A DNA stretch of 64,000 bases from Haloterrigena turkmenica DSM 5511 (GTDB lineage Archaea > Halobacteriota > Halobacteria > Halobacteriales > Natrialbaceae), in the NCBI RefSeq assembly GCF_000025325.1, contig NC_013743.1, positions 1,240,001 through 1,304,000 of the forward strand. The letters run 5' to 3'. Position 1 is the first letter of the stretch. Each line of letters starts with the position of its first letter. This document shows positions 41,343 to 61,390 of the stretch, in pieces. Made by a program: the position numbers and the translations under genes. The notes under the pieces were generated by a model. The model was not told the DNA's origin. It did no database searches and was given only the letters and a program-made list of their open reading frames with translations.

Positions 41343-41905
41343 GGTACCTTCTCCACGGCCGTGCATTGAGAACGCTACGGTATTCAAACGGAGATTTCAA
41401 CTCGTCGATGGCGAGCCAGTGCTCGACCGTTGCCAGATCTGTACAACCGGCGTATCGCACGGATCACATACGGCGTCGGAGTTCCCATCAACCGTCCTGA
41501 AACGAGTTTTCCTCATCGCAAAATCAGCGGGAAAGTGCCTCCAAATGCTTCAATAAATAGATACAAAGTGATGGCGCCTTCTCCTTGGCGCATGCTGTCC
41601 GATATATGGCAAAATAAGCTGATAAGCTCTTAGGGAGATATTCAGCCGATACAGATACCAAGGATTGTTTTATGAACACACAGTTCTCAAACGTAGGTGC
41701 GAATATCCGAAAAGAGATACTAGGTTCTTCACTAGTGACAGGCCAGTCACCTCAATAATAACGGATTCGTGATGCTACAATCATATCAAATATCCTCTAT
41801 ACTGTTCCCGTATATATAATTCTACTGTAGACCATAGCCTGATTATAAATATTGTACTTTCCTAAACCAATACTAATAAGAGGGTCGTTGTCTCCCACTA
41901 GTCAC
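41343..41905. promoter_or_regulatory. AT-rich divergent promoter region of the glycan island
   Basis: The 563 bases between the divergent epimerase and GlmU-like genes are markedly AT-rich. Near the right end, aatactaataagagg at 41868-41883 gives a TATA-like box about 27 bases before the ATG at 41906, so that gene is probably leaderless. A 28-codon frame at 41672-41758 (MNTQFSNVGANIRKEILG) exists but is not called as a gene. CACTAGTGAC/GTCAC-like symmetry is visible near 41732-41748. Confidence 0.45.
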
Positions 41906-43093
41906 ATGGATTCTATGTCCGCAGTGGTCCTCGCCGGAGGCGAGGGCTCGCGGCTGCGGCCGCTGACAAAACATCGGCCCAAGCCCCTCCTTCCGGCGGC
42001 GACGACACCGATTCTCGAGCACGTCTTCGACCAGTTGCTCGAGGCGGGCGTGACGGAGATCACTGTCGTCGTCGGCTACAGGCGTAATCGCGTCCAGGCG
42101 CATTTCGGCTCGACGTATCGGAACGTTCCACTCACGTACGTGACACAGGACCAGCAACTCGGGAGCGGCCACGCGCTGCTGACCGCCGAGTCGACGGTCG
42201 ACGGGACGACCATCGTCGTCAACGGCGACCAGATCGTCGAGAGCACAGTCATTAGCGACGTGCTCGAGGCCCACGATGACAACTCGGCGGTAGCCACACT
42301 CGGTCTGCTCAACCGAGTCGATGTCAGCTCGTACGGCGGCGTCATCCTCGATGACGGTGAGGTGACCGAGATCGTCGAAAATCCACAGGACGAGCGTACG
42401 TACCGGTTCAATGCTGGGGTGTACGCGTTCGAACCGGCGATTTTCGATGCGGTTCGTGCCGCCGAACCGCGTGCGGGTGAACAGTCGCTAATCGACGCTA
42501 TCAACGAGTTGCTAGCGTCCGATGAGGCAGTCCGAGGAACCGTCTCCGAGGGACTGTGGGTCGACGCGACGTACCCGTGGGACCTGCTGGATGTTTCGTT
42601 CGAACTCTTCGAAGCCGGACTGATCAACGGCAGTCGGACGGAGAACGTCGCGGAATCGGCGACAGTCCACGAATCGGCCGTCGTACGGGAACCGGTCGTG
42701 GTCGCTCCAGATTGCGAGATCGGTGCCGGCGCCGTCGTCGGACCGTACGCGTGTCTGGGCGAGAACGCGACAGTAAGATCGAACGCGGTCGTCGAACGGA
42801 GCGTCATCGACGCGGACACGCGCGTCGGTGCGTCGGCCACCGTGGTCGACTGCGTCACCGGTGTCGGCGCCTCGATCGGTAACGGGACGACGATCCCCGG
42901 CGGTCCTGGCGACGTTAGAGTCGGCGACCGGATCTTCGAGGACGAGTCCCTCGGCGCGCTGCTCGGCGATCGAGTCGACGATCAGGGCGGCTGTACGTAC
43001 GTGCCGGGCGCCGTCGTGGGTCCGGAGGTAACTGTGGAGGCAGGCGCAACGGTTCGCGGAACGCTTTCGGAGGGTACGGAGGTGCGATCGTAA
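41906..43093 (+). CDS. Sugar-1-phosphate nucleotidyltransferase with hexapeptide repeats (GlmU-type)
   Basis: The 395-residue protein has VVLAGGEGSRLRPLTKHRPK, then PLLPAATTPILEHV, at the N-terminus (signature GxGSRLRPLT and the PKP lysine) and TIVVNGDQIVE near 105. A C-terminal left-handed beta-helix is visible (ESAVVREPVVVAPDCEIGAG, then GAVVGPYACLGENATVRSNA). It is a paralogue of the enzyme at 17980-19161. Its stop overlaps the glmS start (TAATG), so the operon makes glucosamine-6-phosphate and then a nucleotide amino sugar for the glycan island. The 55-base upstream extension of the frame is not coding-like. Confidence 0.88.
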   Translation: MDSMSAVVLAGGEGSRLRPLTKHRPKPLLPAATTPILEHVFDQLLEAGVTEITVVVGYRRNRVQAHFGSTYRNVPLTYVTQDQQLGSGHALLTAESTVDGTTIVVNGDQIVESTVISDVLEAHDDNSAVATLGLLNRVDVSSYGGVILDDGEVTEIVENPQDERTYRFNAGVYAFEPAIFDAVRAAEPRAGEQSLIDAINELLASDEAVRGTVSEGLWVDATYPWDLLDVSFELFEAGLINGSRTENVAESATVHESAVVREPVVVAPDCEIGAGAVVGPYACLGENATVRSNAVVERSVIDADTRVGASATVVDCVTGVGASIGNGTTIPGGPGDVRVGDRIFEDESLGALLGDRVDDQGGCTYVPGAVVGPEVTVEAGATVRGTLSEGTEVRS

Positions 43094-44883
43094 TGTGTGG
43101 CATTATCGGATACACGGGCAACGGCGGCGACGTACTGGACGTACTGATGAACGGGCTCTCGGGACTGGAGTATCGCGGCTACGACTCCGCCGGCGTGGCG
43201 GTGACGGATTCGTCGCTGGCGATCCACAAGCGCGAGGGCGAGGTCTCAGCTCTCGAGTCGGCGGTGTCCGACAGCACCATCGAGGGGCTGGCCGGGATCG
43301 GTCACACCCGCTGGAGCACTCACGGGCCGCCCTCCGACGCGAACGCCCACCCACACACGGACTGCGGCTCGCGGGTGGCGGTCGTCCACAACGGGATCAT
43401 CGAGAACTACCAGGAACTCCGGCGAGAGCTCGAGGCCGACGGCCACGAGTTCACCAGCGAGACCGACACCGAGGTGGTCCCGCACCTGATCGCAAGTGCG
43501 CTCGAGACCGGTGCGGACCGCGAGGAAGCGTTCCGCGCGGCGGTTCGGCGGATCGAGGGAAGCTACGCCGTCGCCGCCGTGTTCGACGGCAGCGAGACGG
43601 TGTACGCGGCGCGCCACGAGTCGCCACTCGTGCTCGGAATCGGCGACGACGGCCACTACCTGGCCAGCGACGTCCCCGCGTTCATCGAGTACACCGATCG
43701 CGTGGTCTACCTCGAGGACGGCCAGTTCGCCCGCGTCAACCCGTCGGGGATCGTGGTGACCGACGAGCAGGGCGCGGTCGTGGAGACGGCCGTCGAACGG
43801 GTCGAGTGGGATCCCGAAGACGCCGGGAAGTCGGGCTACGATCACTACATGCTCAAGGAGATCCACGAACAGCCGAAGGCGATCCGACAGTGTCTTCGCG
43901 AGCGGGTCACCGAACTCGATAGTACGGTGGTCGTCGAGGAGTTGGCCGACCTCGAACTCTCGGAGCCGGTGCAGTTCGTCGCCTGCGGTACGTCGTATCA
44001 CGCTGCCATGTTCGGTGCAGAACTATTGCGCGAGCGGGGAATCCCAGCTCAGACGTTTCTGGCCAGCGAATTCGGAACCGACCGGGTGCCGATCGACGAG
44101 TCGTCGCTCGTCGTCGGCGTGACACAGAGCGGCGAGACCGCCGATACGATGCGGGCACTGCGGGAAGCGAACAGCGTCGGCGCGACGACCCTCGCACTGA
44201 CCAACACCGTCGGGAGTTCTGCCGCGCGCGAATGCGATCACGTCATGTATATCCGCGCCGGCCCGGAGATCGGCGTCGCCGCGACGAAGACCTTCGCGAG
44301 CCAGCAGGTCGCGCTGGCGATGCTGTCCAGCGTCCTCTCGGCGGAAAGTTCCCCGGCGTTCGTCGAACGATTGCGGGCCCTCCCCGATCAGATCCAGCAA
44401 GTGCTGGACGAGTCGGACGCCCGCGCGGTGGCCGAGACCTACGAGGACTCGGACGCGTACTTCTTCATCGGTCGCGGGTTCAACGAATCCGTCGCGCTTG
44501 AGGGCGCGCTGAAGATGAAAGAGATCACGTACAAACACGCCGAAGGGTTCGCTGCCGGCGAGTTGAAACACGGTCCGCTAGCACTAGTGACCGATCGAAC
44601 ACCGGTCTTTGCACTAGTTACTAGTGAGCGGGACGCAGCGAAGACGCTCGGGAACGTCCAGGAGGTCAAGGCGCGAGACGCACCCGTGATCGCGGTGACT
44701 GACGTACCTGAGAAAGTGAGTGAGTACGCAGATCACGTGCTCGAGGTCCCCTCGGCGGGGCCGCGATTCACGCCCGTTCTCGCGAATATCCAACTACAGT
44801 TGGTCTCCTACTGGGTCGCGAACCGACTCGGCCGGTCGATCGACAAGCCGCGAAACCTGGCTAAGAGCGTCACCGTCGAGTAG
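43093..44883 (+). CDS. glmS: Glutamine-fructose-6-phosphate aminotransferase (isomerising)
   Basis: The 596-residue enzyme makes glucosamine-6-phosphate from fructose-6-phosphate and glutamine. The N-terminal glutaminase starts MCGIIGYTGNGG with catalytic Cys2 and contains GIGHTRWSTHG near 73 and HNGIIENYQELR near 98. Two SIS domains follow: ACGTSYHAAMFGAELLRERG near 298, TQSGETADTMRAL near 345, and the second with FIGRGFNESVALEGALKMKE, then ITYKHAEGFAAGELKHGPLA near 455-495. The C-terminus KPRNLAKSVTVE is standard. Length and motifs are complete. A local CTAG cluster (four copies, 44578-44624) lies in the second SIS domain. Confidence 0.96.
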   Translation: MCGIIGYTGNGGDVLDVLMNGLSGLEYRGYDSAGVAVTDSSLAIHKREGEVSALESAVSDSTIEGLAGIGHTRWSTHGPPSDANAHPHTDCGSRVAVVHNGIIENYQELRRELEADGHEFTSETDTEVVPHLIASALETGADREEAFRAAVRRIEGSYAVAAVFDGSETVYAARHESPLVLGIGDDGHYLASDVPAFIEYTDRVVYLEDGQFARVNPSGIVVTDEQGAVVETAVERVEWDPEDAGKSGYDHYMLKEIHEQPKAIRQCLRERVTELDSTVVVEELADLELSEPVQFVACGTSYHAAMFGAELLRERGIPAQTFLASEFGTDRVPIDESSLVVGVTQSGETADTMRALREANSVGATTLALTNTVGSSAARECDHVMYIRAGPEIGVAATKTFASQQVALAMLSSVLSAESSPAFVERLRALPDQIQQVLDESDARAVAETYEDSDAYFFIGRGFNESVALEGALKMKEITYKHAEGFAAGELKHGPLALVTDRTPVFALVTSERDAAKTLGNVQEVKARDAPVIAVTDVPEKVSEYADHVLEVPSAGPRFTPVLANIQLQLVSYWVANRLGRSIDKPRNLAKSVTVE

Positions 44884-45004
44884 GTTCGGCGACGAGCCTT
44901 CCGGTCCGGCCGAGGAGTCTGACAATCAGCGTGCCGGAACATTCTTCCAAAGTGTATAGGCCAAGACAGCAACAATCAGTAGCCTGTACGCTGAAGTAGT
45001 CACC

Positions 45005-45919
45005 ATGCCCACTCTCCGCGGCAAAACGGTGCTCGTGACGGGAGCGGCGGGGTTCGTCGGGAACCATCTCGTCGATACACTGGTCGACCACAATACGGTA
45101 CTCGCGCTCGATCACTTTCAGACGAATTCCCGAGACCGGCTCGCCGACGATGCCACGATCATCGAGGCGGATATTCGAAACGAAACGGCGCTTCGTCGCG
45201 CAATGGAAGACGTCGACATCATCTTCCATCAGGCCGCGGCGAGAGGCGCGTCAGCGTCGATCGAGGATCCGGTCGGGACACAGGCGGTGAACGTCGACGC
45301 CACGCTCACGCTCCTCGAAGCCGCTCGCGAGGTCGACGCTCGGGTGATCGTCGCCTCGAGTGCCGCAGTGTACGGAGAACCCGCGGATCTCCCCGTTCAC
45401 GAAACCGATCCGAAACAGCCCACATCTCCGTACGGCGTCCAGAAATTAACGGTCGACCAGTACGCGCGGCTCTGGAACGACCTCCACGACCTCGAGACCG
45501 TCGTGCTCCGCTACTTCAACATCTACGGACAACGCGCGTCGGATACGGCGTTCCGCGGCATCGTCGGGACGTTTATCGAACAGGCTCGCGAGGGGCAGTT
45601 GACGATTCTCGGCGACGGATCCCAGACGCGCGACCTCGTCCACGTGTCCGACGTCGTACAGGCGAACCTCCGCGCAGCCACGACGCAGCACACCGGCGAC
45701 GCCTACAACGTCGGCAGCGGTGCTCGTACGAATATCGGCGACCTCGCTCGCCACGTTCGAGAGCATGTGAATCCCGACGCCGAACTCACATACGCGTCGG
45801 AACGACAGTGGGATATCCAAGACAGTCAGGCCGATCTCACTCGCGCGCGAACCCGTCTGAATTACGAACCGACGGTTGACCTCGAACGGTGCCTGCAGAA
45901 CCGCGAATTGAGGGCCTAA
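45005..45919 (+). CDS. NAD-dependent sugar epimerase/dehydratase
   Basis: The 304-residue extended SDR enzyme has VLVTGAAGFVGNHLVDTLVD at 9-28, DIIFHQAAARGASAS near 76, SSAAVYGEPADLPVHETDP near 118 and catalytic YGVQK near 146. The C-terminus has AYNVGSGARTNIGDLA. It resembles UDP-glucose/GlcNAc 4-epimerases of the archaeal type. A TATA-like gtatagg at 44956-44962 lies about 45 bases upstream. It is the first of four SDR genes in the island. Confidence 0.87.
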   Translation: MPTLRGKTVLVTGAAGFVGNHLVDTLVDHNTVLALDHFQTNSRDRLADDATIIEADIRNETALRRAMEDVDIIFHQAAARGASASIEDPVGTQAVNVDATLTLLEAAREVDARVIVASSAAVYGEPADLPVHETDPKQPTSPYGVQKLTVDQYARLWNDLHDLETVVLRYFNIYGQRASDTAFRGIVGTFIEQAREGQLTILGDGSQTRDLVHVSDVVQANLRAATTQHTGDAYNVGSGARTNIGDLARHVREHVNPDAELTYASERQWDIQDSQADLTRARTRLNYEPTVDLERCLQNRELRA

Positions 45920-45931
45920 TAGTCCCGCCGA

Positions 45932-46072
45932 TCAGTCGTCGTCGCGGGCTTCACTGATTTTCTCCCAGATTTCGACGCATCCCGCGCCATCCGGGACCTC
46001 ATCGAGATGGTCCGTATCGGTGTCAGCTTCTGCTTCCTGATCGTCCGTCGCTGTGACCGCTGAATCAGTCAT
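45932..46072 (-). CDS. 46-residue acidic microprotein
   Basis: The short reverse-strand frame starts at the ATG at 46070-46072 and reads MTDSAVTATDDQEAEADTDT, then DHLDEVPDGAGCVEIWEKIS, then EARDDD. The core VPDGAGCxEIWE is a pattern of small haloarchaeal proteins of unknown function. The strongly acidic composition supports real expression. It lies inside the 316-base gap between two epimerase genes, on the opposite strand. A single cysteine is present, so it is not a zinc finger. Confidence 0.65.
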   Translation of the reverse strand: MTDSAVTATDDQEAEADTDTDHLDEVPDGAGCVEIWEKISEARDDD

Positions 46073-46235
46073 ATGCTCTCAATCATTTCTTTGCCTATGC
46101 TTAAACGTTATCCTCAATGAAAATTTATCGGTAGAGTTGACATGTTAGCCGAATCTGTATGGGTCAAAACAGTATCGATTTAGGACGAATAACAATCTTT
46201 TTGATCTCACTGGGATTGTGTTTGTATCGTTAGAT

Positions 46236-47408
46236 ATGACGATTCTGATCACCGGAGGAGACGGCTATCTTGGCTGGCCCACGACGTTACGAATTGCAAC
46301 GCAAACGGATGACCGCGTCATTGCGGTCGATAATCTCGCTCGACGGGAGTGGGTCGAATCGGTCGGCTCGACGAGCGCGCTCCCGATCGGCTCGATCGAC
46401 GAGCGACTCGACGCCGCACGAGAGGTACACGGCGTTCAGAACCTCTCGTTTGTCGAGGGCGATCTCGTGGAACGAGAGTTCGTCGATGAACTCCTCTCCG
46501 TCCACGAACCCGATACGATCGTCCACACGGCGGCCCAACCCTCTGCCCCGTATTCGCAGATCAACGGCGAGCGCGCCAATTTCACCCAGCACAATAATCT
46601 CCAGGCGACTCGGAACCTGCTGTGGGGCCTCGAGGAACACGACCTCACGGACACGCACTTCATCGAAACGACGACCACCGGCGTCTACGGCGCACCCGAG
46701 TTCCCCATTCCCGAGGGCGGTGCGACGATGGAGAATCAGGGCGAGCGCGACGAGGTCCCCTTCCCCGCGATGGCGGGCTCCTGGTATCACCTGACGAAGA
46801 GCCACGACGCGGCGAACATGCGACTGGCCCACAAACAGTTCGGGATCCCGATCTCCGACGTCCGTACTGCGATCACCTACGGGACGGAGACCGAAGAGAC
46901 GAACGCCGATCCCCGACTGTCGACTCGATTCGACTTCGACTACTACTTCGGCGTCGTTGCACACCGGTTCTGTGCGCAAGCAGTCGCCGGGTATCCGATG
47001 ACCGTCTACGGGAAAGGCGAGCAGCGAAAGCCGTTCGTCGCGCTCGAGGACGCCGTCGAGGGACTAGCGCAACTGGCGCTTGCCGACCCCGACGACCGGC
47101 CGTCGGACCTCACGGTGTACAATCAGGTCACCCGCGAGATCAGCATCGTCGAAATCGCCGAGACCATCGCCGACGTGGCCAACGAGTTCGAACTGGGCGT
47201 CGAAGTCGAGCACTTCGAAAATCCCCGTGACGAAGACGAGACGCACAAGATGGTGATGGAGAACGACCGATACGACCATCTTATCGGCGGCCAGTCGACG
47301 ACCTTCGAAGAGGGAATGCGGTCGCTCCTCGGCACGCTCGTCGAGTACGAGGACGTCATCACCGCCCACGAAGACCGGTTCCTGCCCGGCGTCCTCACGG
47401 AGGACTGA
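46236..47408 (+). CDS. UDP-sulfoquinovose synthase-like (SQD1/Agl3) NAD-dependent enzyme
   Basis: The 390-residue SDR enzyme begins MTILITGGDGYLGWPTTLRI, the SQD1 form of the NAD motif (GGDGYxGW). HTAAQPSAPYSQIN near 98 parallels the SQD1 EQRSAPYS segment. TTTGVYGAPEFPIPEG is at about 150 and catalytic YHLTK near 186. RFDFDYYFGVVAHRFCAQAV, AGYPMTVYGKGEQRKPF and YNQVTREISIVEIAE match the SQD1/Agl3 substrate region. SQD1 adds sulfite to a UDP-glucose-derived intermediate; in Sulfolobus, Agl3 supplies sulfoquinovose for N-glycans. It starts at the ATG 46236 rather than the earlier non-ATG codon. It is followed after 3 bases by another SDR gene. Confidence 0.88.
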   Translation: MTILITGGDGYLGWPTTLRIATQTDDRVIAVDNLARREWVESVGSTSALPIGSIDERLDAAREVHGVQNLSFVEGDLVEREFVDELLSVHEPDTIVHTAAQPSAPYSQINGERANFTQHNNLQATRNLLWGLEEHDLTDTHFIETTTTGVYGAPEFPIPEGGATMENQGERDEVPFPAMAGSWYHLTKSHDAANMRLAHKQFGIPISDVRTAITYGTETEETNADPRLSTRFDFDYYFGVVAHRFCAQAVAGYPMTVYGKGEQRKPFVALEDAVEGLAQLALADPDDRPSDLTVYNQVTREISIVEIAETIADVANEFELGVEVEHFENPRDEDETHKMVMENDRYDHLIGGQSTTFEEGMRSLLGTLVEYEDVITAHEDRFLPGVLTED

Positions 47409-47411
47409 CGC

Positions 47412-48389
47412 ATGCGCGTGCTGGTCACCGGCGGCTGTGGCTATATCGGGAGCGTGCTCGTGCCGCAACTACTCGAGGACGAGGCCGTCTCCGAGGTCGT
47501 CGTCCTCGACTCGCTCGTGTCTGGCTCCCCGCGGACGCTGATGGGGTCGGTCGGCGACGATCTCGAGTTCGTTCGCGGTGACATCCGCAACTACGGTGAC
47601 GTGGAGACCGCGATGCGCGACGTCGACCGCGTGATCCACCTCGCGGCGATCACGGGTGCCTCGAGTACTCACGATCGCCGCGACGAGACGTTCGCGGTCA
47701 ACTACGACGGCACAGAGAACGTCGTGACCGCCGCCGGCAAGTTCGACGTCGACTCCGTCGTGTTCGCCTCGTCGTGTAACAACTACGGTCGGGCCGCGAG
47801 CCGGAACATCGACGAGACGACGACGCCCGAACCGCTCAATCCCTACGCCGAATCGAAAGTGCAGGCGGAGGAGTTGGTTAACGACGCGGCGGCAGAGCAC
47901 GGGTTCGATGCGACATCCCTGCGCATGAGTACGAACTACGGCTACTCGCCGGGGGTCCGTTTCAACCTCGTCGTCAATCACTTCGTCTTCCGCGGCTTGA
48001 CCGACCGTCCGCTGACGGTCTACGGCGACGGGAACAACTGGCGACCGTTCATTCACGTTCAGGACGCCGCCCGTGCGTACAAGCACGCGGCGCTCCACCC
48101 CGATCAGTGGGCGCACGACGTCTACAACGTCGGGAGCACCGATCAGAACTACCAGATTTCGGATATCGCGGAACTCGTCAATCGAGAGCTCGACTCCGAA
48201 CTCGAGATCACGTATCTCGAGGACGAGCAACCGGGGCCGTCCTACCACGTTAACTTCGATCGGCTGTCCGAGACCGGGTTCGAGCCGGAGTGGACGCTGC
48301 GAGACGGCGTCTGCGATCTGATCGCGCAGTTCGAGGGCTCCGGAACCGAACTTCAATCGGCCGCGATCACGCAACCGATCAACCCATGA
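47412..48389 (+). CDS. NAD-dependent sugar epimerase/dehydratase
   Basis: The 325-residue extended SDR enzyme has MRVLVTGGCGYIGSVLVPQL, VIHLAAITGASSTHDRR near 77, FASSCNNYGRAASRN near 118 and catalytic YAESK near 145. LRMSTNYGYSPGVRFNLVVN follows near 170, and the family C-terminus VYNVGSTDQNYQISDIAELV near 238. It lies 3 bases after the sulfoquinovose-synthase-like gene and overlaps the next SDR gene by ATGA, so the three are one operon. The NCS/NNY arrangement before YGR differs from GalE; the exact sugar is unknown. Confidence 0.87.
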   Translation: MRVLVTGGCGYIGSVLVPQLLEDEAVSEVVVLDSLVSGSPRTLMGSVGDDLEFVRGDIRNYGDVETAMRDVDRVIHLAAITGASSTHDRRDETFAVNYDGTENVVTAAGKFDVDSVVFASSCNNYGRAASRNIDETTTPEPLNPYAESKVQAEELVNDAAAEHGFDATSLRMSTNYGYSPGVRFNLVVNHFVFRGLTDRPLTVYGDGNNWRPFIHVQDAARAYKHAALHPDQWAHDVYNVGSTDQNYQISDIAELVNRELDSELEITYLEDEQPGPSYHVNFDRLSETGFEPEWTLRDGVCDLIAQFEGSGTELQSAAITQPINP

Positions 48390-49354
48390 CATCGACCGAC
48401 ACAGCCACGATCGCAGTAACTGGTGGCGCCGGCTTCATCGGCAGTCGCGTCATCGACCGATTACAGGCGGAGCATCCGGAGTGGGACGTCGTCGCGCTCG
48501 ACAACCAGTATCGCGGCCAGGTGTCGTCGGTCGGCGACGTGGACATCCAGCACGTCGATATCCGGGACCGACGAGCGCTCGAGGAAACGCTCGAGGGCGC
48601 TGACGTCGTGTTGCACCTCGCGGCGCTGAGCGGCGTCGACGACTGCGACTCCAACCGCGACCTCGCCTACGAGGTCAACGTTCAGGGGACGAACAACGTT
48701 GCCTGGTTCTGCCGGCAGACGGGCGCGGGGCTGGTCTTCCCGTTCAGTATGGCCTCGATCGGCGATCCGCAGTCGTTCCCGATCACCGTCGACCACCCGC
48801 GCGATCCCATGAACTGGTACGGACGAACGAAGGTGCTCGGCGAACGCGCCGTCGAGACGCTCGCCGAAGGCGCGTTCCCCGCCCACATGTATATGAAGTC
48901 GAATCTCTACGGGGAACACGAGGTCGACGGCACGACGGTCTCGAAGCCCACCGTGATCAACTTCTTCGTGAACCGGGCGCTCTCCGAGGAGACGCTGACC
49001 GTGTACGAACCCGGGACGCAGTCGCGGAACTTCGTGCACGTGAAGGACGTCGCTCGAGCGTACGTTCGGAGCACGGAACGGCTGCTGACGCAGCTGGAGC
49101 AGGGAGAGACGGGCGTGGAGAAATACGAGATCGCCAGCGACGAAGATCTGTCGGTAATGGCGACGGCAGAGGTCGTACAGCAGACCGCTGTCGAGAAACA
49201 CGGGTTCGAACCGGACGTCAAACTCGTCGAGAACCCCCGCGGGAACGAAACGCTCGTCGAGAACTTCGCGGTCGATTTCACTACGGCGACGCAGCGGTTA
49301 GGGTGGGAACCGACTCACTCCGTCGCGGAATCAGTCTCGAGGCTACTAGAATAG
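48386..49354 (+). CDS. NAD-dependent sugar epimerase/dehydratase
   Basis: The 322-residue extended SDR enzyme has IAVTGGAGFIGSRVIDRLQA at 9-28, DVVLHLAALSGVDDCDSNRD near 75 and FPFSMASIGDPQSFPITVDH near 118. Catalytic YGRTK lies near 148 and YMKSNLYGEHEVDG near 170. Start ATG overlaps the previous stop (ATGA), marking translational coupling. It is the last gene of the SDR run; the following 150 bases are AT-rich and hold five CTAG sites. Confidence 0.87.
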   Translation: MTSTDTATIAVTGGAGFIGSRVIDRLQAEHPEWDVVALDNQYRGQVSSVGDVDIQHVDIRDRRALEETLEGADVVLHLAALSGVDDCDSNRDLAYEVNVQGTNNVAWFCRQTGAGLVFPFSMASIGDPQSFPITVDHPRDPMNWYGRTKVLGERAVETLAEGAFPAHMYMKSNLYGEHEVDGTTVSKPTVINFFVNRALSEETLTVYEPGTQSRNFVHVKDVARAYVRSTERLLTQLEQGETGVEKYEIASDEDLSVMATAEVVQQTAVEKHGFEPDVKLVENPRGNETLVENFAVDFTTATQRLGWEPTHSVAESVSRLLE

Positions 49355-49508
49355 CTAGTAGCAGAGCTGATTTAAGTTATACCGGTAGTATTATGACTGC
49401 ATTTTTATAGAATAACTAGTGGTATGGAAAGCCAGAATCGGAGATGTTTATCTGCCTCTAGGAGACTAGATTTAATCCCGAGAATGATAACACTCGAGGT
49501 GAACTGAG

Positions 49509-50531
49509 ATGGTTGAAGCATTAGATCTCGCTCTCGGAGGTGTCGCAGTCGGTATTCTCGCGTGGGGGTTCGAACGGTATCGAACCCGCTTCGTCAAATC
49601 CGACCTGATAATCGCAGGCGCGCTCGCAGTAGGTCTTCTCATCTTCGTGGTACTTCCGGGCGTATACGATTCTATCGGCGCCGCACTCAATATCGATGGA
49701 CGATTCGTGTTGCTCTCGATGCTCGCACAGTTCGTCCTCCTCGCGATCATCCTCCATCTCCTCTCGATGGTTCGAGAGACGAACGCGCGGTTTTCCGATC
49801 TCGTGAGAAATATCTCCGCCGATCAGGCGCCGCAAATGGACGGCGGCGAGCGGACGATTTTCGTCGTGATCCCGGCCTATAACGAGGGAAAGACGATTAC
49901 GTCCGTCGTGAAATCGCTTCCGGACACCATCCGCGGCTATACCCTTCAGCCGGTGGTCGTCTCCGACGGCTCCGTTGACGACACCGCCGAGAACGCCAGG
50001 TACAACGGGACCGTCGTCGTCGAACATCTCGTCAACCAAGGGCAGGGCGGCGCGTTGAAAACGGGCTTCCAGATCGCGCTCGAACAGGAGGCCGACATCG
50101 TCGTTACGATGGACGGCGACGGCCAGCATCCGGCCGAGGAGCTCGAACGATTGGTCTCTCCCGTAATCGACGACGAAGCCGACTACGTGATGGGCTCGCG
50201 GTACAAGGGTGAAAACAAGACCGGCAACGGAGTCGTTCGTGAAAGTGGAATTAGGTCATTCACGTGGCTGATCAACGCCCTGACGAAGTCCGAGATCACG
50301 GACTGCACGAACGGGTTCCGAGCGATTCGTGCATCTGGACTTGAGGATATGAAGTTAACTGAAGAACGGTTTAGTGCCCCTGAGTTGATTATTGAGGCGC
50401 GCAAGAATGGGCTCCGGATTCAGGAAATCCCGATCACGATCGAAGAGCGACAGGCCGGTGAGACAAAGAAACCGCAGTTGATGTACGCTATTGGACTGAC
50501 CCGAGCGATCCTCGCGACCTGGATTAGGTAA
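49509..50531 (+). CDS. DUF2304-glycosyltransferase family 2 fusion
   Basis: The 340-residue protein has three N-terminal transmembrane helices at about 5-95 (DUF2304: DLALGGVAVGILAWGFERYR, then SMLAQFVLLAIILHLLSMVR) fused to a GT2 domain. The latter shows IFVVIPAYNEGKTITSVVKS near 117-136, VVVSDGSVDDTAENA near 150, NQGQGGALKTGFQIALEQEA near 178 and DGDGQHPAEEL near 202 (the DxD-like metal site). The C-terminus LTEERFSAPELIIEARKNGL, then IQEIPITIEER, fits dolichyl-phosphate sugar synthases such as AglD/AglJ. It probably loads a sugar onto dolichol phosphate. GAGGTGA, seven bases before the ATG, is SD-like. Base composition becomes AT-richer from about 50330 onward. Confidence 0.88.
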   Translation: MVEALDLALGGVAVGILAWGFERYRTRFVKSDLIIAGALAVGLLIFVVLPGVYDSIGAALNIDGRFVLLSMLAQFVLLAIILHLLSMVRETNARFSDLVRNISADQAPQMDGGERTIFVVIPAYNEGKTITSVVKSLPDTIRGYTLQPVVVSDGSVDDTAENARYNGTVVVEHLVNQGQGGALKTGFQIALEQEADIVVTMDGDGQHPAEELERLVSPVIDDEADYVMGSRYKGENKTGNGVVRESGIRSFTWLINALTKSEITDCTNGFRAIRASGLEDMKLTEERFSAPELIIEARKNGLRIQEIPITIEERQAGETKKPQLMYAIGLTRAILATWIR

Positions 50532-50578
50532 CGTTGACAATTCTTGCCCAACCGTCTGCGAAACACAATCATTTTGAT

Positions 50579-51697
50579 TCAACTATTACTGTTCCATAAT
50601 TTCTGATAGAGTGTCCAGTAGTCATCACACATTGTTTCCATAGAATAGTTTGCTATTACATTAGATCGAACGCGCTGACAAATATCCTCAGTATTTGCCG
50701 AAACTGCATCAATCGCGCGAGCGAGCGCTTCGGAGTTGTTCGGTGGAACTGTTTCTCCGGCTTTGACGAGCTCTGAGGCACTACCGACGTCCGTCGAAAT
50801 CACCGGTAAACCACAGGCTTGCGCTTCTAACAACACTGTCGGTTGCCCCTCTGACAGTGATGAAAGGACGAATATGTCGTGGCTTCGATAGTAAGGGAGG
50901 ACGTTTTCTTGATACCCTTCAAACGTAACGAGATCATCAATACCTAATTCGACGCAGCGACTTTCATATTCGTCTCGTTTCGTTCCATCCCCGACGATCG
51001 TCAAGTGGTACGCTTCTTCGCTTTCCAAAGACAGCAATTTCATGGCATTAAGAAGTGTCGGAACGCCCTTTACTGGATCCAACCTACCGACGAACAGGAG
51101 CTCAGTTACCTCACTATCCGCCCGTGACTCGTCTCGAGAAGGAGTGAAATTCTCTGTGTCGATTCCGTTCGGAATTACCGATAGTTTGTCTGCTTCGGCA
51201 TATGGTTTTAGCGGATCAAGCAAATAATCACCGAGGGCTACAACGTGGTCGGCTGCTTCGAACGTTGCTCTGCCTAATGTAGCTGTATAACAACGCCCGA
51301 TGAAATCGACTGGGCGACTGCCCGATGTCCAATTGACTCCTGGGAGCGAATCAACCGTCACTACGGAGGGCGTAGAAAGGCGCCGTGATTCGATAACTGC
51401 GGCTGCACACACAGGGTAAAAATAGCTATATACATGAACAATATCTGACTTCTTTACTAGTGCGGAAAGCTGTCGTAAAAATGATGGGGTTGGTAGTGTA
51501 TATCGGACGCCCGGAACATACATCGCATTATAATACCTATAGTCTACGTTCGGAGCTTCTGAAGCCATTTCTTCACTATCCGATGGAGTTAAAATTGTTA
51601 TATTTGCTTTTGTCGTTAATCCTCTACTGAGAGATTGAATCCCTGTTCGAACTTGCTTTGTCGGATTAACATAAACTATGGACGGTTTGGAGGTCAT
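50579..51697 (-). CDS. Glycosyltransferase family 4
   Basis: The 372-residue GT-B enzyme is recognised by KLSVIPNGIDTENFTPSRDE near 170-190, LLFVGRLDPVKGVPTLLNAM near 198-217, LTIVGDGTKRDEYE near 230 and the catalytic E-x7-E block SEGQPTVLLEAQACGLPVIS near 288-308. It would transfer a sugar from a nucleotide donor to the lipid-linked glycan. The gene is notably AT-rich compared with the first half of the window, reads opposite to its neighbours and faces the GT2 gene tail to tail (47 bases apart). Confidence 0.92.
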   Translation of the reverse strand: MTSKPSIVYVNPTKQVRTGIQSLSRGLTTKANITILTPSDSEEMASEAPNVDYRYYNAMYVPGVRYTLPTPSFLRQLSALVKKSDIVHVYSYFYPVCAAAVIESRRLSTPSVVTVDSLPGVNWTSGSRPVDFIGRCYTATLGRATFEAADHVVALGDYLLDPLKPYAEADKLSVIPNGIDTENFTPSRDESRADSEVTELLFVGRLDPVKGVPTLLNAMKLLSLESEEAYHLTIVGDGTKRDEYESRCVELGIDDLVTFEGYQENVLPYYRSHDIFVLSSLSEGQPTVLLEAQACGLPVISTDVGSASELVKAGETVPPNNSEALARAIDAVSANTEDICQRVRSNVIANYSMETMCDDYWTLYQKLWNSNS

Positions 51698-52230
51698 ATT
51701 TCAGAATACTATAGCATTGGCCATATATGTCACGAAGTCACTAAGAGGATTAAAAAGTCATACTAGTACGAGAAGTAAATGAAGAGTTGAAAAATATAGA
51801 GGTTCTATGAATTTGAAAGCTATTCTTTCAATTTAATTACGAGGGTCTGTCCCAGTTCCGTACGTTCTCTGGTTCGAGAGCGGTATAAGTTGGGATATCG
51901 ATACCGAAAACTGAAATAGAAAAAGGGGACTTCAACGCCAAGATACGTTCGATGACGGGACAAATACATGGGACATACATACCGCAAACTGTGAGTGGAA
52001 CATTGATACTAGTGTCTAGGGAGTACTTTGGATAGATAAATCATTCTCGTGGCCCATCGTCAAATTCAAGTTTTGGATTGTTGTTCTCTATATCATGACA
52101 CCGACAGGGAGCGTCGAAACAAAAGAGGAAATCGTAGCTACCAATATTCTGCTTTTCTAGAGATCATGTTGGGAATATATGATAAAATACCGTCTATCAT
52201 TGAGCGGTTTAACGGCAAGATAGTACTTTG
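51698..52230. other. AT-rich intergenic region
   Basis: The 533 bases are AT-rich and contain only short frames that look like noise. They separate the divergent GT4 and flippase-like genes, so promoters for both are expected. Candidate TATA stretches are visible (e.g. gggaatatatgataaa near 52168-52183), but none can be assigned with confidence. Confidence 0.4.
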
Positions 52231-53202
52231 ATGTCTACCAGTTGGATGACATCAAACAAATTAAAATCTGTATCAAAAGCATTGGTCTCGCTTGGGATCC
52301 TCGCTTACCTTCTCTGGCAGATCCCTGTTCAAGAGGTAGTGGCTACTATCCCTAGATTAGGGATTATCCCCGCCGCAGCGCTCTCAGGGCTCCTTGCTCT
52401 TGAGGTGTTTCTGTCTACACTCTCGATCTTCATTCTCACGACTTACTACACGGATTTAACCTTCTATCGAATGTTTAAAATCGATGCAGCGAATTTCATT
52501 GCGAACGTATTTATTCCCTCTCGTCTCGGATCTGTTATATCAATGCCTGTCCTAATTGATCGGTACACAAGTGCAAATAAGGCGGAAGGCGCGGTTATCC
52601 AAACGACCCAGATGGTGATCGTGACGCTAATCACGGGCGGAACTGCGGGGATTGGATGGCTAATCTTTCAAGATATACTCTCCACTGAGATGAGCCTTAC
52701 ACTCGCGCTCTGTGTAGCATTATATCTCGGTTTCCCGGTTGCGGTCGTCACAGGTATCCTCTTGTCGGATATAAATATAGTACAACAACACATCATTTCA
52801 CGTCTCCCCATCCCTGAAGTTCAGCAGGGAACCCGAATAGATCCACGCCGACTTCTTGCCTCAAGTGGCTGCCTAATCGCGGCGCGCGTGATCTTGGCTG
52901 GTGCTCGTCTGTGGATTCTCTCGATTGTATTCGGCCTTGATTTGGGACTTCTTGAGATGCTATTTATTCCTGTCCTGATGTATTCTGTGACTGTCTTACC
53001 GATCTCGCTCGGCGGGATAGGGGTTGCAGAAGCATCTGGAACCGCTGTTATAAGCGCGCTAGGAGTGCCAGTCGCAGTCGCAGCGACCGTCATATTCATC
53101 GATCGAATTTTCACGACATATTTACCGTTAGTGGGATTCTATGCATATGTAAACCTCACTGGCCTTCCAGATCGAGTCGTAGACAACAATACAACAAGAT
53201 AA
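52231..53202 (+). CDS. Flippase-like (UPF0104/AglD-C-terminal type) membrane protein
   Basis: The 323-residue polytopic protein begins MSTSWMTSNKLKSVSKALVS, LGILAYLLWQIPVQEVVATI. Later motifs FKIDAANFIANVFIPSRLGS near 92-112 and PISLGGIGVAEASGTAVISA near 252-272 are the recurring patterns of the lysylphosphatidylglycerol synthase TM/UPF0104 family (N-F-P-R-G and P-x-GGxGxxE). Such proteins are proposed to flip lipid-linked sugars. A TTG three bases upstream is in frame, but the ATG at 52231 is the likelier start. AT-rich; 4-base gap to the next gene. Confidence 0.85.
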   Translation: MSTSWMTSNKLKSVSKALVSLGILAYLLWQIPVQEVVATIPRLGIIPAAALSGLLALEVFLSTLSIFILTTYYTDLTFYRMFKIDAANFIANVFIPSRLGSVISMPVLIDRYTSANKAEGAVIQTTQMVIVTLITGGTAGIGWLIFQDILSTEMSLTLALCVALYLGFPVAVVTGILLSDINIVQQHIISRLPIPEVQQGTRIDPRRLLASSGCLIAARVILAGARLWILSIVFGLDLGLLEMLFIPVLMYSVTVLPISLGGIGVAEASGTAVISALGVPVAVAATVIFIDRIFTTYLPLVGFYAYVNLTGLPDRVVDNNTTR

Positions 53203-53206
53203 TAGT

Positions 53207-55141
53207 ATGAAAATGGCACCCGAAAAATGGCTCCAAACGCTCCTTCAGAAGGCGTCTTGGCCGATTTTCTTCGTTCTTGTCATCGCCGTTGTTGGGCTTT
53301 GGATACTCGGCGTATATCTCCAACTCCCAATTGCGCTTGGGTTCTTGGCAGGGACAGTAGTAGCTATAGTTAATCGATATCGAGACCCCTTACACGATCA
53401 TCCTGCATACAATTGGGGCTTCCCGACTACTACCTCAATTAAACTGGGTTATCTAATATTTCTCTGGTTGTTCATCGCAGCCGCCGTCTCACTTCGAGTA
53501 ACGATCTATACTAAACCAGTCGCTTATTATTTGTTCGTCGCAGTTGCGGCCTCTCTGTTAGTTGTTTTACCGAAGTATGGGAAATTGCGACTCCCCTGGT
53601 TCTGTTGTGTTATCGGGCTGGGAGCAATCGTATTCCTCTCTAATCAGATGGTCTATCCGTTTGGATTTGGCGGTGCTGATTCATATTATCATATCTCACA
53701 AATGGTTCAGCCAATCCTGGAGAACGGGACGGTTCCACAGGGAACTAATTACAGCTCATATGCTCTACATCATATTTTTGTGGTCTCCAGTAGCCTCTTC
53801 CTCGATATTCCGGGGAAACAGATGTATTACTACTCCCTGGGGATCGTGATGCTAATCAGCGGGATTTGGGTATTTCTGTTCGTCCGGACCGTTCTGTACG
53901 AACGGAAGTGGGCAGCAGCTCCAGAATACTGGGCCAGCCTTGCGCTTGTCGTCTTCGTCAGCTCCGATTTCATCAACCGCTACACGAACAACGGAAACCA
54001 TCTTACCTATACCGGGCTTTTCATCGTAATGATACTCACTCTGAGCTACATCCTCGTCTGGTCCCGAAATATCGAGAAACCGTTCCAAGTACGAGTGGCC
54101 GGCACAGTCTTTTTTCTCTTTGCGACCATCACCGTCACCCACCATTATTCGGTCGCGATTCTTCTGTTCCTCCTTTTTCCGCTTCTTCTCGTAGCACCGC
54201 GGATGAGGCAGGGACGACGTATACTGATTGCGTTTAGCGTGATAGTTTTTATTCAGTGGACATACAACGCGACTACATATGGCCTTGAGTTAGTGATTGC
54301 AAATATCATTCCGCTCTTCATCGGCTTCGATATCGCGAGCCCTACAGGAGCATCAATGGATCAGCCGATATGGCTCATTGCGTATACCACACTCGGAATT
54401 TCGATCGCCTTCGCCATCGTACAAATCGGCATTCTTGATCGTTTAGAAGCCAATATACCGCTTCGGGAAAAAGTATTCCCAGTGCTTTGCTACGCATTTT
54501 TAGCCCTGATGGCTGTCGGCGTAATCCTCGGAATCCAGGGGATGTCTCCAAATCGGATGTTGTTTTTCTCGCTTCTCACGTTCGTCCCTCTGTTTTTCGT
54601 TCTAGGTATCCGCTCACTTCAGTTCCGTCGTCCACAATTAGTCACTGCTGGATTAATCCTTATCATCGCATTTTTTGCACTCTCAGGACTCACTCCAAGC
54701 ATCGAGACGAGCCCAGTCAGTGATGACGTATCACACAACAAGAAGTTTGAAACATATGAAGAAAGTGAGATAGTTGACTGGTACCGGGCACATCAGCCCG
54801 GAAATCAACCAACTTACGCCAGCCGATCGTTTGTAGAGTACGATTCTGGAACAGTAATGTTTCGGGCACATTTAGAGGATTCTCAGATAGGGGCGGAGCC
54901 GGTGCCATTGGCAGCTACGGGCGAACACTATTTACAGGAAAATATGACAGATAGCATTCTACTCTACAGCGAATATGATGAGCGAATAGGATATCGGCCA
55001 GGATTGGAGGAAAGTCGTCGATTCGGAGAAGGGGAATACGCAACTCATGCTCAAGAGAGCGTTACCGCTCTAGAGACCAATAACCGAATATACGATTCCG
55101 GTGTCACGAGGTCATATCGTGTCAATAAGACTATCAACTAG
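53207..55141 (+). CDS. Large polytopic membrane protein, glycosyltransferase-C-like
   Basis: The 644-residue protein has about 12-14 transmembrane helices over residues 1-510. The first external loop reads FGGADSYYHISQMVQPILEN, then GTVPQGTNYSSYALHHIFVV; the acidic FGGADSYYHI resembles the first-loop acidic motif of GT-C glycosyltransferases, though it is not a perfect match. The C-terminal 130 residues are soluble and probably external. It is probably a lipid-linked-sugar transferase or polymerase for the glycan island, but the family is not certain. It is in one operon with the flippase-like gene, AT-rich, and ends the glycan island. Confidence 0.75.
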   Translation: MKMAPEKWLQTLLQKASWPIFFVLVIAVVGLWILGVYLQLPIALGFLAGTVVAIVNRYRDPLHDHPAYNWGFPTTTSIKLGYLIFLWLFIAAAVSLRVTIYTKPVAYYLFVAVAASLLVVLPKYGKLRLPWFCCVIGLGAIVFLSNQMVYPFGFGGADSYYHISQMVQPILENGTVPQGTNYSSYALHHIFVVSSSLFLDIPGKQMYYYSLGIVMLISGIWVFLFVRTVLYERKWAAAPEYWASLALVVFVSSDFINRYTNNGNHLTYTGLFIVMILTLSYILVWSRNIEKPFQVRVAGTVFFLFATITVTHHYSVAILLFLLFPLLLVAPRMRQGRRILIAFSVIVFIQWTYNATTYGLELVIANIIPLFIGFDIASPTGASMDQPIWLIAYTTLGISIAFAIVQIGILDRLEANIPLREKVFPVLCYAFLALMAVGVILGIQGMSPNRMLFFSLLTFVPLFFVLGIRSLQFRRPQLVTAGLILIIAFFALSGLTPSIETSPVSDDVSHNKKFETYEESEIVDWYRAHQPGNQPTYASRSFVEYDSGTVMFRAHLEDSQIGAEPVPLAATGEHYLQENMTDSILLYSEYDERIGYRPGLEESRRFGEGEYATHAQESVTALETNNRIYDSGVTRSYRVNKTIN

Positions 55142-55578: not shown

Positions 55579-56175
55579 ATGTTCCCGCGCGAACTCGAGA
55601 CCGACCGATTGCGCCTCGAGCGACTCAGCCACGAGACGATCGACCTGGAGTCGTACTATCGGGCGTGTTCGGTTCACGAACCGGGGATCGAGGAGGTCGT
55701 CGAGTACGTCCCCGGGTTCGAACCGCATCGTCACCCGAAGGAGACGCGGGACTTCGTCGACCGTGCCGAACGACAGTGGGACGACGGGGAACGCGCCGAG
55801 TACATCGTTCGGCCCCGCGAGGGGGAGTCAGGGGCGGGCGATATCGCGGGCGGCACGCGGTTAGACATTGACTGGGACAAACGGACGGCGGATCTGGGTA
55901 TCTGGCTCCGAACGGCGTTCTGGGGGCGCGGCTACGCCGGCGAGCGAGCCCGTGCCTTCCTCGAGGTCGCCTTCGAGCGGTTGGACCTCGAGTTGGTCCA
56001 AGCCGTCTGTCTCGACGGCAACGAACGGTCCAGACGGGCGATCGAGAAGTACGTCGCCGAGTTCGGCGGCACCTACGAGGGACGCCTGCGAAACTGGATG
56101 GTCGGAAGCGACGGCGCACCGGTCGACTGCCATCGGTACACGATCCGCGCCGACGAGTATTTCGAACACCGGTGA
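55579..56175 (+). CDS. GNAT-family acetyltransferase, RimJ/RimL type
   Basis: The 198-residue protein has the RimJ/RimL N-terminal pattern PRELETDRLRLERLSHETID at 3-22 and, after the middle strand, ADLGIWLRTAFWGRGYAGERA near 108-128, where RGYAGE is the acetyl-CoA-binding loop. DLELVQAVCLDGNERSRRAI follows near 140. This is the class that acetylates protein N-termini or small molecules; haloarchaeal members are uncharacterised. Stands alone, high GC, so it belongs to the core genome rather than to the AT-rich island. Confidence 0.85.
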   Translation: MFPRELETDRLRLERLSHETIDLESYYRACSVHEPGIEEVVEYVPGFEPHRHPKETRDFVDRAERQWDDGERAEYIVRPREGESGAGDIAGGTRLDIDWDKRTADLGIWLRTAFWGRGYAGERARAFLEVAFERLDLELVQAVCLDGNERSRRAIEKYVAEFGGTYEGRLRNWMVGSDGAPVDCHRYTIRADEYFEHR

Positions 56176-57740: not shown

Positions 57741-58027
57741 AAAAGGGGCGACAGGCTCGAGGAGTACGACGATGTCCTCGCACACATGCGCGCGGCGGAC
57801 GTCTTCGCCTCCCGTCCACCCGCGAAGGCTTCGGCATCCCGTTCGCGGAGGCGATGGCTGCGGATTATACCGTCATCGCAGCGGCCCATCCCGAGTCCGC
57901 CGCTTCCGAAGTGATCGCCGACGCGGGCTTCCTCGCGTCACCGACGGTCGACGACGTAACCGATGCCCTCGAGCGCACCACTGACTACCTCGGCAGTTGC
58001 CTGGTCGCTGTCGACGCCACTAGATGA
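57741..58027 (+). pseudogene. Frameshifted C-terminal remnant of a GT4 glycosyltransferase
   Basis: One frame reads RLEEYDDVLAHMRAADVFAS. After a frameshift at about 57811-57814 another reads PSTREGFGIPFAEAMAADYT, then VIAAAHPESAASEVIADAGF. Together they form the C-terminal catalytic region of a GT4 enzyme (xREGFGIxFxEAMA, the E-x7-E block). A run of four C or CCCG losing a single base explains the shift. The N-terminal two thirds are absent and the end is degenerate. Thus the glycan gene set once extended further or was rearranged. Confidence 0.78.
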
Positions 58028-59485: not shown

Positions 59486-59827
59486 ACTCTTGGAACTAGA
59501 TCGCCGGATATTGCTATGTACGTACGGGGAGTTCACAGACCGGCCCCTTCAAGCGGAAGACGACGATCCGTCTTGGCAACGACGTTCCGTGGGGTAGCGG
59601 CCGTAACGAGCGAGGTAGGGCTCGGACATCGTTCTGACTCCGCGAGCAGCTTCGTTGCGCTTGCTGACCGAGAAGTCCGTACACCCGTTCCAGCGGGCTT
59701 GCTGGTCTCGGCAGTGGCGATGGGGCGCGTCACAGGGGGCGGGTGCAGCCACTGGTGAAGGCGGACAGCGCCGCCACTGCCGGCAGCCGTCGCAGGCTAG
59801 TGGCCGCAGCGACGTAGTTCCAAGAGT
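59486..59827. mobile_element. MITE-like 342-bp element with 13-bp terminal inverted repeats
   Basis: ACTCTTGGAACTA at 59486-59498 and its exact reverse complement TAGTTCCAAGAGT at 59815-59827 bound a segment with no convincing gene. Flanking bases (tacct left, ccccag right) do not show a clear target-site duplication. The interior has short frames on both strands without recognisable families. It could be a deleted insertion sequence. It lies between a small-gene remnant and the tnpB element, in a region rich in mobile DNA. Confidence 0.5.
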
Positions 59828-60039
59828 CCCCAGCAGAGAAGCGCCCAGTGAAATCGCAATCCAGACGCTTCCGGAGACTCTACGGCTACCTCGACGACCA
59901 TCCTAATACGGATGGTGCTAACTATTATTTCCGATAGCTATAGAATATGAATGGAAGTCCAAAGTCGATCACACTTACCGAAACTCTCGTCAAACGGATG
60001 GACTAGTCCCGACGCTAGTACTAGTATTCTGTACTCGCT

Positions 60040-60290
60040 ATCGGTGACATCCTCCTCGCCGGAAACCGAGAGGGAGCGAAGCTCCCTCAAGCAGTCGGGC
60101 GTAGCCCGACGACGGCAAGGCTTCCCACACAGTAAGAATACCGGGCTTGCCGGTAAGGTTTTAAGACCGATCATCTCCAAGCGTCATTTGCGTAGGTGTG
60201 CTCGGCTTGGGTGGTCTTACGGCGGTGTCACTACCGCTCCCATCCCGAGGCGAGTCATTGCGTTCCGATTTCCAAGGAACGCTCTCTCCC
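60040..60290 (-). ncRNA. Expected omega RNA / right end of the tnpB element
   Basis: TnpB works with an RNA made from the 3' end of its own gene and the right end of the element. The bases after the tnpB stop (60161-60163) contain three hairpins: CCGG-based at about 60140-60154, GTCGGGC-gta-GCCCGAC at 60094-60110 and GAGGGAGC-gaa-GCTCCCTC at 60070-60088. The guide would be taken from DNA beyond the end, near or below 60060. The exact boundary cannot be fixed from one copy. Confidence 0.5.
60070..60115. repeat. Paired-hairpin module downstream of tnpB
   Basis: Hairpin GAGGGAGC-gaa-GCTCCCTC (60070-60088), spacer aagca, hairpin GTCGGGC-gta-GCCCGAC (60094-60110), then gacgg. This has the same order, 3-nt loops, spacer and flank as the element inside the aldehyde dehydrogenase gene at 16073-16117. 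It is the only one of the three copies that sits outside a protein-coding gene. Confidence 0.7.
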
Positions 60291-61390
60291 CACGGGTCAA
60301 CCCTCTGAGCGATGCTTGCAGCTGCACTGATATCCGCTTGGAACGTCGAGACGCGACAGTGGTCGTTCGTACACCGAAGTTCTGCTTGCGTACTTCGCTT
60401 TCCGATGTGACTACACTCGTGGCACGTCTGAGACGTGTAACGCGGACTCACGTATTCGACCGGGATACCGACGTCTCTCGCTTTGTCCTCAACACGGCCC
60501 TGAAGCCGTGCAAAGGCCCACGCGTGGAGTCGCCGGTTCATGTACTTCCCGTAGTCCAAGTTCTCACGGATGTACGTCAGATTCTCCATCACGATCATCG
60601 GGTTCTCGAAAGTGCCAGCGTATTCGACGACCTCGCAACTGGCCTTCTCGAGGATATCCGTAAGCGCGTTTTGGTAGTAGTCGAACCGTTCATCAATGCG
60701 CCATTCAGCATCACGTTCTTGTAGTCGCTGAAGCGTGGTCGACATTTCCTTTCGGAGGTGTTTTGTACGCTTACCACTCCAGAGAACGGGTCTTGTCGGT
60801 GTACCGCGCTTAAGGCCACAGGCCGTGATCAGCGCAGTCTCACCGATATCAAGCCCGACTGGTGTGGTGTCACCGTCTACCGTCGGTTCTTCAACCGGGT
60901 ACTCGACGGTAACGTGAAGTGCCCAGTTCTTCCGGTTCTTCTGGAGTTGAATCTGTCCAGCCTTGACGTCCTCGTTGAGGAGATCGTGCCAGAGGTCTTC
61001 TTGCTCCGGGTTAATCCGAAGCGGAATCCAGAAGTTCGTCCCTCGTCCCGGTCGCGGTGCCCACCACGTGAATTCGTGCTCACGTTCGCTCGAGTAGTCG
61101 AACCTCGCGGCCTGATTTGTGAGCCGGAGCGGGTGTTCATCGTCTAACTCACGGGCGTTATATGTTTTCCGGAGCTTCGGGATGTAGCTGCATAGTGCAG
61201 CCTTCGCTTGGTATGGAAGATCGAACGGCGTCACTACTTCAGAGACACCGTTCATCGTATCCGCACCAGAGTCGAACGCGTCTTGCAGCGCCTCACGGTA
61301 TGTTTTGAGAGTATCTTGTAACTTCTCCTCTTTGTGGGCTGTCGGCGAGACAAGCGTCGCTTCGAGCGTCTTATTCGCTGTAGTAGACAT
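60161..61390 (-). CDS. tnpB: TnpB, RNA-guided nuclease of an IS200/IS605-type element
   Basis: The 409-residue protein has an N-terminal helical/WED-like region, a RuvC domain with catalytic aspartate in VGLDIGETALIT near 180, glutamate in VMENLTYIRENLDYGKYMNR near 270 and final aspartate in TFQADISAAASIAQR near 352. It also has a zinc finger CHEC...CTNDHC near 320-340. All catalytic residues are present, so it looks functional. The start ATG overlaps the tnpA stop by one base (TAATG), the usual order. TnpB cleaves DNA with an omega RNA and helps the element persist; without an intact TnpA this copy cannot move on its own. Confidence 0.93.
   Translation of the reverse strand: MSTTANKTLEATLVSPTAHKEEKLQDTLKTYREALQDAFDSGADTMNGVSEVVTPFDLPYQAKAALCSYIPKLRKTYNARELDDEHPLRLTNQAARFDYSSEREHEFTWWAPRPGRGTNFWIPLRINPEQEDLWHDLLNEDVKAGQIQLQKNRKNWALHVTVEYPVEEPTVDGDTTPVGLDIGETALITACGLKRGTPTRPVLWSGKRTKHLRKEMSTTLQRLQERDAEWRIDERFDYYQNALTDILEKASCEVVEYAGTFENPMIVMENLTYIRENLDYGKYMNRRLHAWAFARLQGRVEDKARDVGIPVEYVSPRYTSQTCHECSHIGKRSTQAELRCTNDHCRVSTFQADISAAASIAQRVDPWGESVPWKSERNDSPRDGSGSDTAVRPPKPSTPTQMTLGDDRS

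Follow-up and report, generated by a model that had tools for sequence, protein, structure and literature searches.

A probable replacement-type surface-glycan island with a mosaic interior in Haloterrigena turkmenica DSM 5511

A cluster of glycan genes in the haloarchaeon Haloterrigena turkmenica DSM 5511 shows a sharp fall in GC content near the 3' end of a gene for a family-2 glycosyltransferase with a DUF2304 domain (GT2), raising the question of whether foreign DNA begins at that point, inside the gene, or elsewhere. The window, meaning the whole stretch of 64,000 nucleotides that was analysed (G000:C1:1240001-1304000, in a genome of 5.44 Mb), contains between 41852 and 56175, in this order, genes for a nucleotidyltransferase, GFAT, four epimerase-type proteins, GT2, a family-4 glycosyltransferase (GT4), a flippase-like protein, a polytopic membrane protein and a GNAT protein. 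The comparison set, with one genome per species, comprised five same-genus genomes, 60 relatives for DNA searches and 384 genomes of the order. The reading that we consider probable is that of a replacement-type surface-glycan island with a mosaic interior, in which GT2 was probably swapped whole together with GT4.

Nearest relatives change at the start of GT2

The three genes preceding GT2 (the epimerase block; Table 1) are closest to those of the genome designated G216, with identities of 85, 80 and 76%, whereas GT2 is closest to Natrinema hispanicum (79%), followed by G358 and G340 (76% each), and GT4 follows GT2 in this respect, with identities of 71% to N. hispanicum, 67% to G358 and 46% to G216. 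Trees of the epimerase block and of GT2 were built from one set of ten taxa. The former joined the window to G216 with a support of 100 and rejected its union with N. hispanicum, G340 and G327 (approximately unbiased [AU] test, 2.6e-4), whereas GT2 placed the window with those three genomes with a support of 97 and rejected its pairing with G216 (AU 0.0064). The two splits are incompatible under any root. A walk over 277 informative residues located the peak of the switch at 49524, with a near-optimal range of 49346-49584, and GT2 is accordingly assigned wholly to the right-hand side of the seam; the permutation p-value of this walk (2e-4) tests clustering only. Together these data show that the epimerase block has other nearest relatives than the GT2-GT4 pair (49509-51697) and that the change falls where GT2 begins. 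We reasoned that a module swap with its border at about 49.35-49.55 kb would have taken the whole of GT2 plus GT4, and that the flippase-like and polytopic genes, for which no relatives above about 36% identity were found in the 384 genomes of the order, may have arrived along with them.

The larger unit that holds this seam was delimited by comparison within the genus. In all five same-genus genomes the shared left flank extends to 41343 (in one of them to 41333), and similarity resumes on the right in pieces at 57756-57976 and/or 59819-60048; between these flanks lie some 8-23 kb in which most genes are different ones, some of them for glycans, so that the same chromosomal site carries different glycan genes in the five genomes. 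Glycosyltransferases, epimerases and flippase-type proteins are encoded in the window and in the sister islands alike, and the glycan is presumed from this content to lie at the cell surface. Just at the right edge lies a shortened and frameshifted piece of a GT4 gene, 91-100% identical to a gene of G001 in two frames, and likewise to G004 and G005; in three same-genus genomes the GT4 gene stands intact at this place. The shared flanks, the differing interiors and the GT4 remnant indicate that the whole island was exchanged relative to the genus. An earlier note on this DNA had ascribed an import to the right half of the island, from 50330 to 55141; a surface-glycan island has indeed been exchanged, and the source of its right part does differ from that of the epimerase block, but the exchanged unit is the whole island. 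A search for repeats at the island ends gave short matches only, none of which pairs 41.34 with 57.76 kb exactly.

The composition step and the interior of GT2

The composition step itself is strong, as had been claimed: GC content is 0.676 over positions 1-35000 of the window, 0.626 over 41850-49354 and 0.462 over 50532-55141. At third codon positions, a change-point model with two breaks, at 50321 and 55135, exceeded a flat model by 213 units of log-likelihood (lnL), and for all bases the top breaks fell at 50325 (2-lnL interval 50195-50525) and 55235. Gene by gene, the GC content of third positions (GC3) is 0.74-0.84 in the genes of 41852-49354, 0.70 in GT2, 0.42 in GT4, 0.47 in the flippase-like gene and 0.51 in the polytopic gene. 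By all bases, high GC is back at about 55235, but similarity to the same-genus genomes at this site is back only at about 57756.

A step of this kind is found in relatives as well. GC3 is lower in the gene 3' of GT2 than in GT2 itself in seven of seven relatives (clearly in six, slightly in one), mostly with different genes downstream, and the step therefore requires no seam within GT2; in islands of the same genus, too, GC3 drops from about 0.7-0.9 to 0.3-0.5. The right-hand genes may accordingly be AT-rich in the way that variable genes for glycan assembly usually are in such islands. Within GT2, the profile is not GC-rich up to 50330 and AT-rich thereafter, as the earlier note described it, but low-high-low, with a GC3 of 0.52 in codons 1-65 that rises to 0.79 in the core and falls to 0.58 in the tail (successive blocks: 0.54, 0.65, 0.78, 0.82, 0.73, 0.58), and its best single break is at codon 65 (49706). 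A model of three gene-bounded classes (epimerases, GT2, right-hand genes) reached lnL -1629.6, while a single free break within GT2 gave -1632.2; the top model tried assigned the head and tail of GT2 to the AT-rich class with a GC-rich core between them (lnL -1619.0). The dip at the head is present too in the nearest relative, N. hispanicum. We take the dips at both ends to be probable local features rather than seams, and leave the unusual depth of the one in the tail as such.

Were there a seam at 50330, the two sides of GT2 should have different relatives. With 30 distinct full-length GT2 relatives, residues 1-273 (body) and 274-340 (tail) were compared, and in the trees of both parts N. 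hispanicum was the nearest neighbour of the window. The pairing of the two (window and L052) was rejected neither by the body (AU 0.21) nor by the tail (AU 0.54), most distant placements were rejected by both parts, and counts of informative sites showed no switch of preference at 50330. A recombination seam within GT2 at that position is thus not supported by the trees of both parts, the AU tests or the informative-site counts; within the limited power of the short tail the two parts place the window alike, and the GC3 step is there. Taken as whole topologies, the trees of the two parts reject each other, and recombination may therefore have affected GT2 genes in other members of the family. 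The GT2 of G340 (L153, 9244-10311) has a tail that leaves the group of its body and resembles the window's group less than the body does; it is this gene, not that of the window, that may be a within-gene recombinant.

Homologous recombination within GT2 near 50330, replacing the end of the gene through about 55141 with DNA of an AT-richer lineage, would account for the position of the best composition break (50321-50325) inside GT2 and for a tail whose GC3 differs from that of the core (p = 0.001) and is relatively lower than in any of 30 homologues. It is quite unlikely, since body and tail share their nearest relatives, GT4, on the far side of the break, is closest to the same genomes as GT2, AT-richness is just as marked at the head of GT2, the gene-bounded model fits better, and the tail differs in GC3 from GT4 as well (p = 0.016); a very short conversion tract from a close relative is conceivable. 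A recent transfer of the right part out of a haloarchaeon of low GC, for instance one resembling Haloquadratum, would suit its GC of 0.46 beside the 0.676 of the left part of the window, but we regard it as highly improbable: among the 60 relatives nothing closely similar in DNA to 50.6-55.1 kb was found, and the best relatives of GT4, with a GC3 of about 0.55, lie in islands of other genomes, so that AT-richness is common to these gene families in several hosts.

An island without any mosaic, which came as one piece and whose step merely separates two classes of genes (conserved ones for sugar supply and fast-changing ones for assembly), is unlikely in our judgement. It draws on the GC3 contrasts within islands of differing gene content and on G216, where the same seven families of genes stand together in a single run; the well-supported and incompatible splits of the epimerase block and GT2 argue against it, unless the mosaic was formed in an earlier host, in which case the last transfer could have been of one piece. 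That the mosaic perhaps formed before the island entered the present genome is among several points that weigh against a module swap at this locus as we read it. The comparison for GT4 covers few genomes; the test of the tail has limited power because the tail is only 67 residues long, and it failed to reject the distant placements L058, L051 and L037; the GC3 of the tail lies 0.15 below that of the rest of the gene, a value as low as which was found in none of the 30 homologues (their minimum being -0.08); and the model of the polytopic protein has a mean predicted local distance difference test score (pLDDT) of only 56. A replacement-type island, with GT2 carried whole on the right-hand side of its internal seam, remains the reading that we favour.

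The right-hand genes and their surroundings

The features of the island are collected in Table 1.

Table 1. Coordinates of the inferred boundaries and of the genes in and around the island (window positions)
Feature	Position	Strand	Basis or remark
Exchanged surface-glycan island (probable)	41343 to ~57756		Left edge just within the start of the conserved flanking epimerase gene 40422-41387 (-)
Phylogenetic seam, nearest relative G216 to N. hispanicum	49346-49584		Walk over informative residues
Composition step	50195-50525, best 50321-50325		Between GT2 3' part and convergent GT4; change-point likelihood
Sugar-1-phosphate nucleotidyltransferase (AglF/GlmU-like)	41852-43093	+	NCBIfam Arch_glmU 254 bits, below cutoff 292
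GFAT (GlmS)	43093-44883	+	NCBIfam glmS 733 bits, cutoff 418
Four epimerase-type genes	45005-49354		
Epimerase block (three genes, one UDP-sulfoquinovose-synthase-like and two of the epimerase family)	46218-49354	+	GC3 0.79-0.84
DUF2304-GT2 glycosyltransferase	49509-50531	+	Pfam PF00535, PF10066
GT4 glycosyltransferase, convergent with GT2	50579-51697	-	Pfam PF00534, PF13439
Flippase-like membrane protein, LPG_synthase_TM family	52228-53202	+	Pfam PF03706
Polytopic membrane protein	53207-55141	+	No Pfam or NCBIfam match
GNAT gene	55579-56175		
GT4 remnant, shortened and frameshifted	57756-57976	+	Codons 266-339 of a 378-codon gene in G001 (L184)

The company of GT2 recurs in other genomes. In N. 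hispanicum and G358 a related GT4 lies near GT2, also convergent, with one extra GT4 between them; G216 has epimerases, GT2, the polytopic gene, the flippase-like gene and GT4 in this order on a single strand. GT2, a flippase-like gene and GT4 are adjacent in G066 and G181 (same taxonomic order, other family), and in G121 GT2 adjoins a flippase-like match, with GT4 about 4 kb further on. Matches to the flippase-like protein at 1e-40 or better occur in only three other genomes of the 384, each next to a GT2 of the DUF2304-GT2 family; G216 has, in addition to these, a match of 36% identity. The polytopic protein has a match of 34-36% directly 3' of GT2 in G216.

In a weak structural model, the polytopic protein aligns to STT3/AglB, ArnT and AftA over about 330 residues with Z-scores of 15-17, and the 33 best rows are all GT-C proteins; it is probably, on the strength of this modelled fold, a GT-C-type glycosyltransferase. 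GT2 is probably a dolichyl-phosphate-sugar (Dol-P-sugar) synthase. Against AglJ, the first Dol-P glycosyltransferase of haloarchaeal N-glycosylation, it scores 103 bits (NCBIfam TIGR04182) and does not reach the cutoff of 325. AepG of Haloarcula hispanica was considered as a counterpart and set apart by description, its two membrane segments being C-terminal and the membrane part of GT2 N-terminal. By analogy with AglD, AglR and AglS of Haloferax volcanii, GT2 and the flippase-like and GT-C-like genes plausibly form a Dol-P-sugar module, in which GT2 would charge dolichyl phosphate with a sugar, the flippase-like protein would help the Dol-P-sugar across the membrane, and the GT-C-like protein would transfer the sugar outside; if the roles are coupled in this way, the repeated company of GT2 with these genes would be explained. 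It is rather unlikely that the conserved DUF2304-GT2 gene is a recurrent hinge of exchange in haloarchaeal glycan islands, with variable assembly modules repeatedly swapped at its borders against a conserved epimerase block.

Further observations concern the left part of the island and its right surroundings. The nucleotidyltransferase-GFAT pair (41927-44883) has a second copy, 71% identical in DNA, at G000:C1:2237171-2240130. The top NCBIfam match of the gene at 46218-47408 is UDP-sulfoquinovose synthase (347 bits, under the cutoff of 575), and the glycan may therefore contain a sulfonated sugar. To the right, 19-nt inverted repeats, 89% complementary, bound a stretch of 342 bp (59486-59827) that is perhaps a miniature inverted-repeat transposable element (MITE)-like sequence and whose right end abuts the point where same-genus similarity resumes. 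A TnpB-like transposon protein (60161-61390, minus strand; Pfam Cas12f1-like_TNB, PHROGs transposase) is encoded just right of the island, and a large terminase-like phage gene (62689-63900, minus strand; PHROGs phrog_2, 2.6e-16) is a hint that the window's right end may belong to a provirus.

Comparison with known systems

A composition step can mislead as to the position of a seam: the two are separated here by about 0.8 kb, and the history read for GT2 depends on which of them is followed. With its mosaic interior and the leftover of the displaced island at one end, the locus is a clear example, from a haloarchaeon, of a surface-glycan island that can be replaced. A link of such exchange to virus sensitivity has been drawn (PMC4033161), as has one to mating preference where the surface glycans of haloarchaea are exchanged (PMC5867893); recombination within glycosylation genes has been reported in Haloferax (PMC5867893).

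The proposed module resembles, by role, the AglD-AglR-AglS mannose branch of Haloferax volcanii (PMC3871713), in that the same three roles are predicted for its genes (a GT2-family Dol-P-sugar synthase, a flippase or helper, and an outside transferase), although aglD, unlike the GT2 of the window, lies outside the main cluster (PMC3871713). In Haloferax gibbonsii LR2-5, long regions that vary between strains have a GC content below the average, and one of them, LVR2, holds a whole N-glycosylation cluster (PMC7921747); the likeness, drawn by description and from another genus, lies in the low GC and the variable glycosylation genes. The cell-wall island GI1 of Haloquadratum walsbyi, diversified by homologous recombination and mobile elements (PMC4535781), is likewise a haloarchaeal surface island, its gene content being compared by description only.

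Replacement genomic islands are a known kind, of which the present case is probably a further member. Replacement flexible genomic islands were described for surface-structure genes of aquatic prokaryotes, one archaeon included (Lopez-Perez et al. 2014, PMC4033161), and their exchange was attributed to recombination in the flanks (PMC4033161). The island of H. turkmenica shares with them a single site with conserved flanks and different clusters of like function, for surface glycans; it differs in that species are compared here and strains there, and in that its interior is mosaic, whereas complete clusters are reported to be exchanged in those islands.

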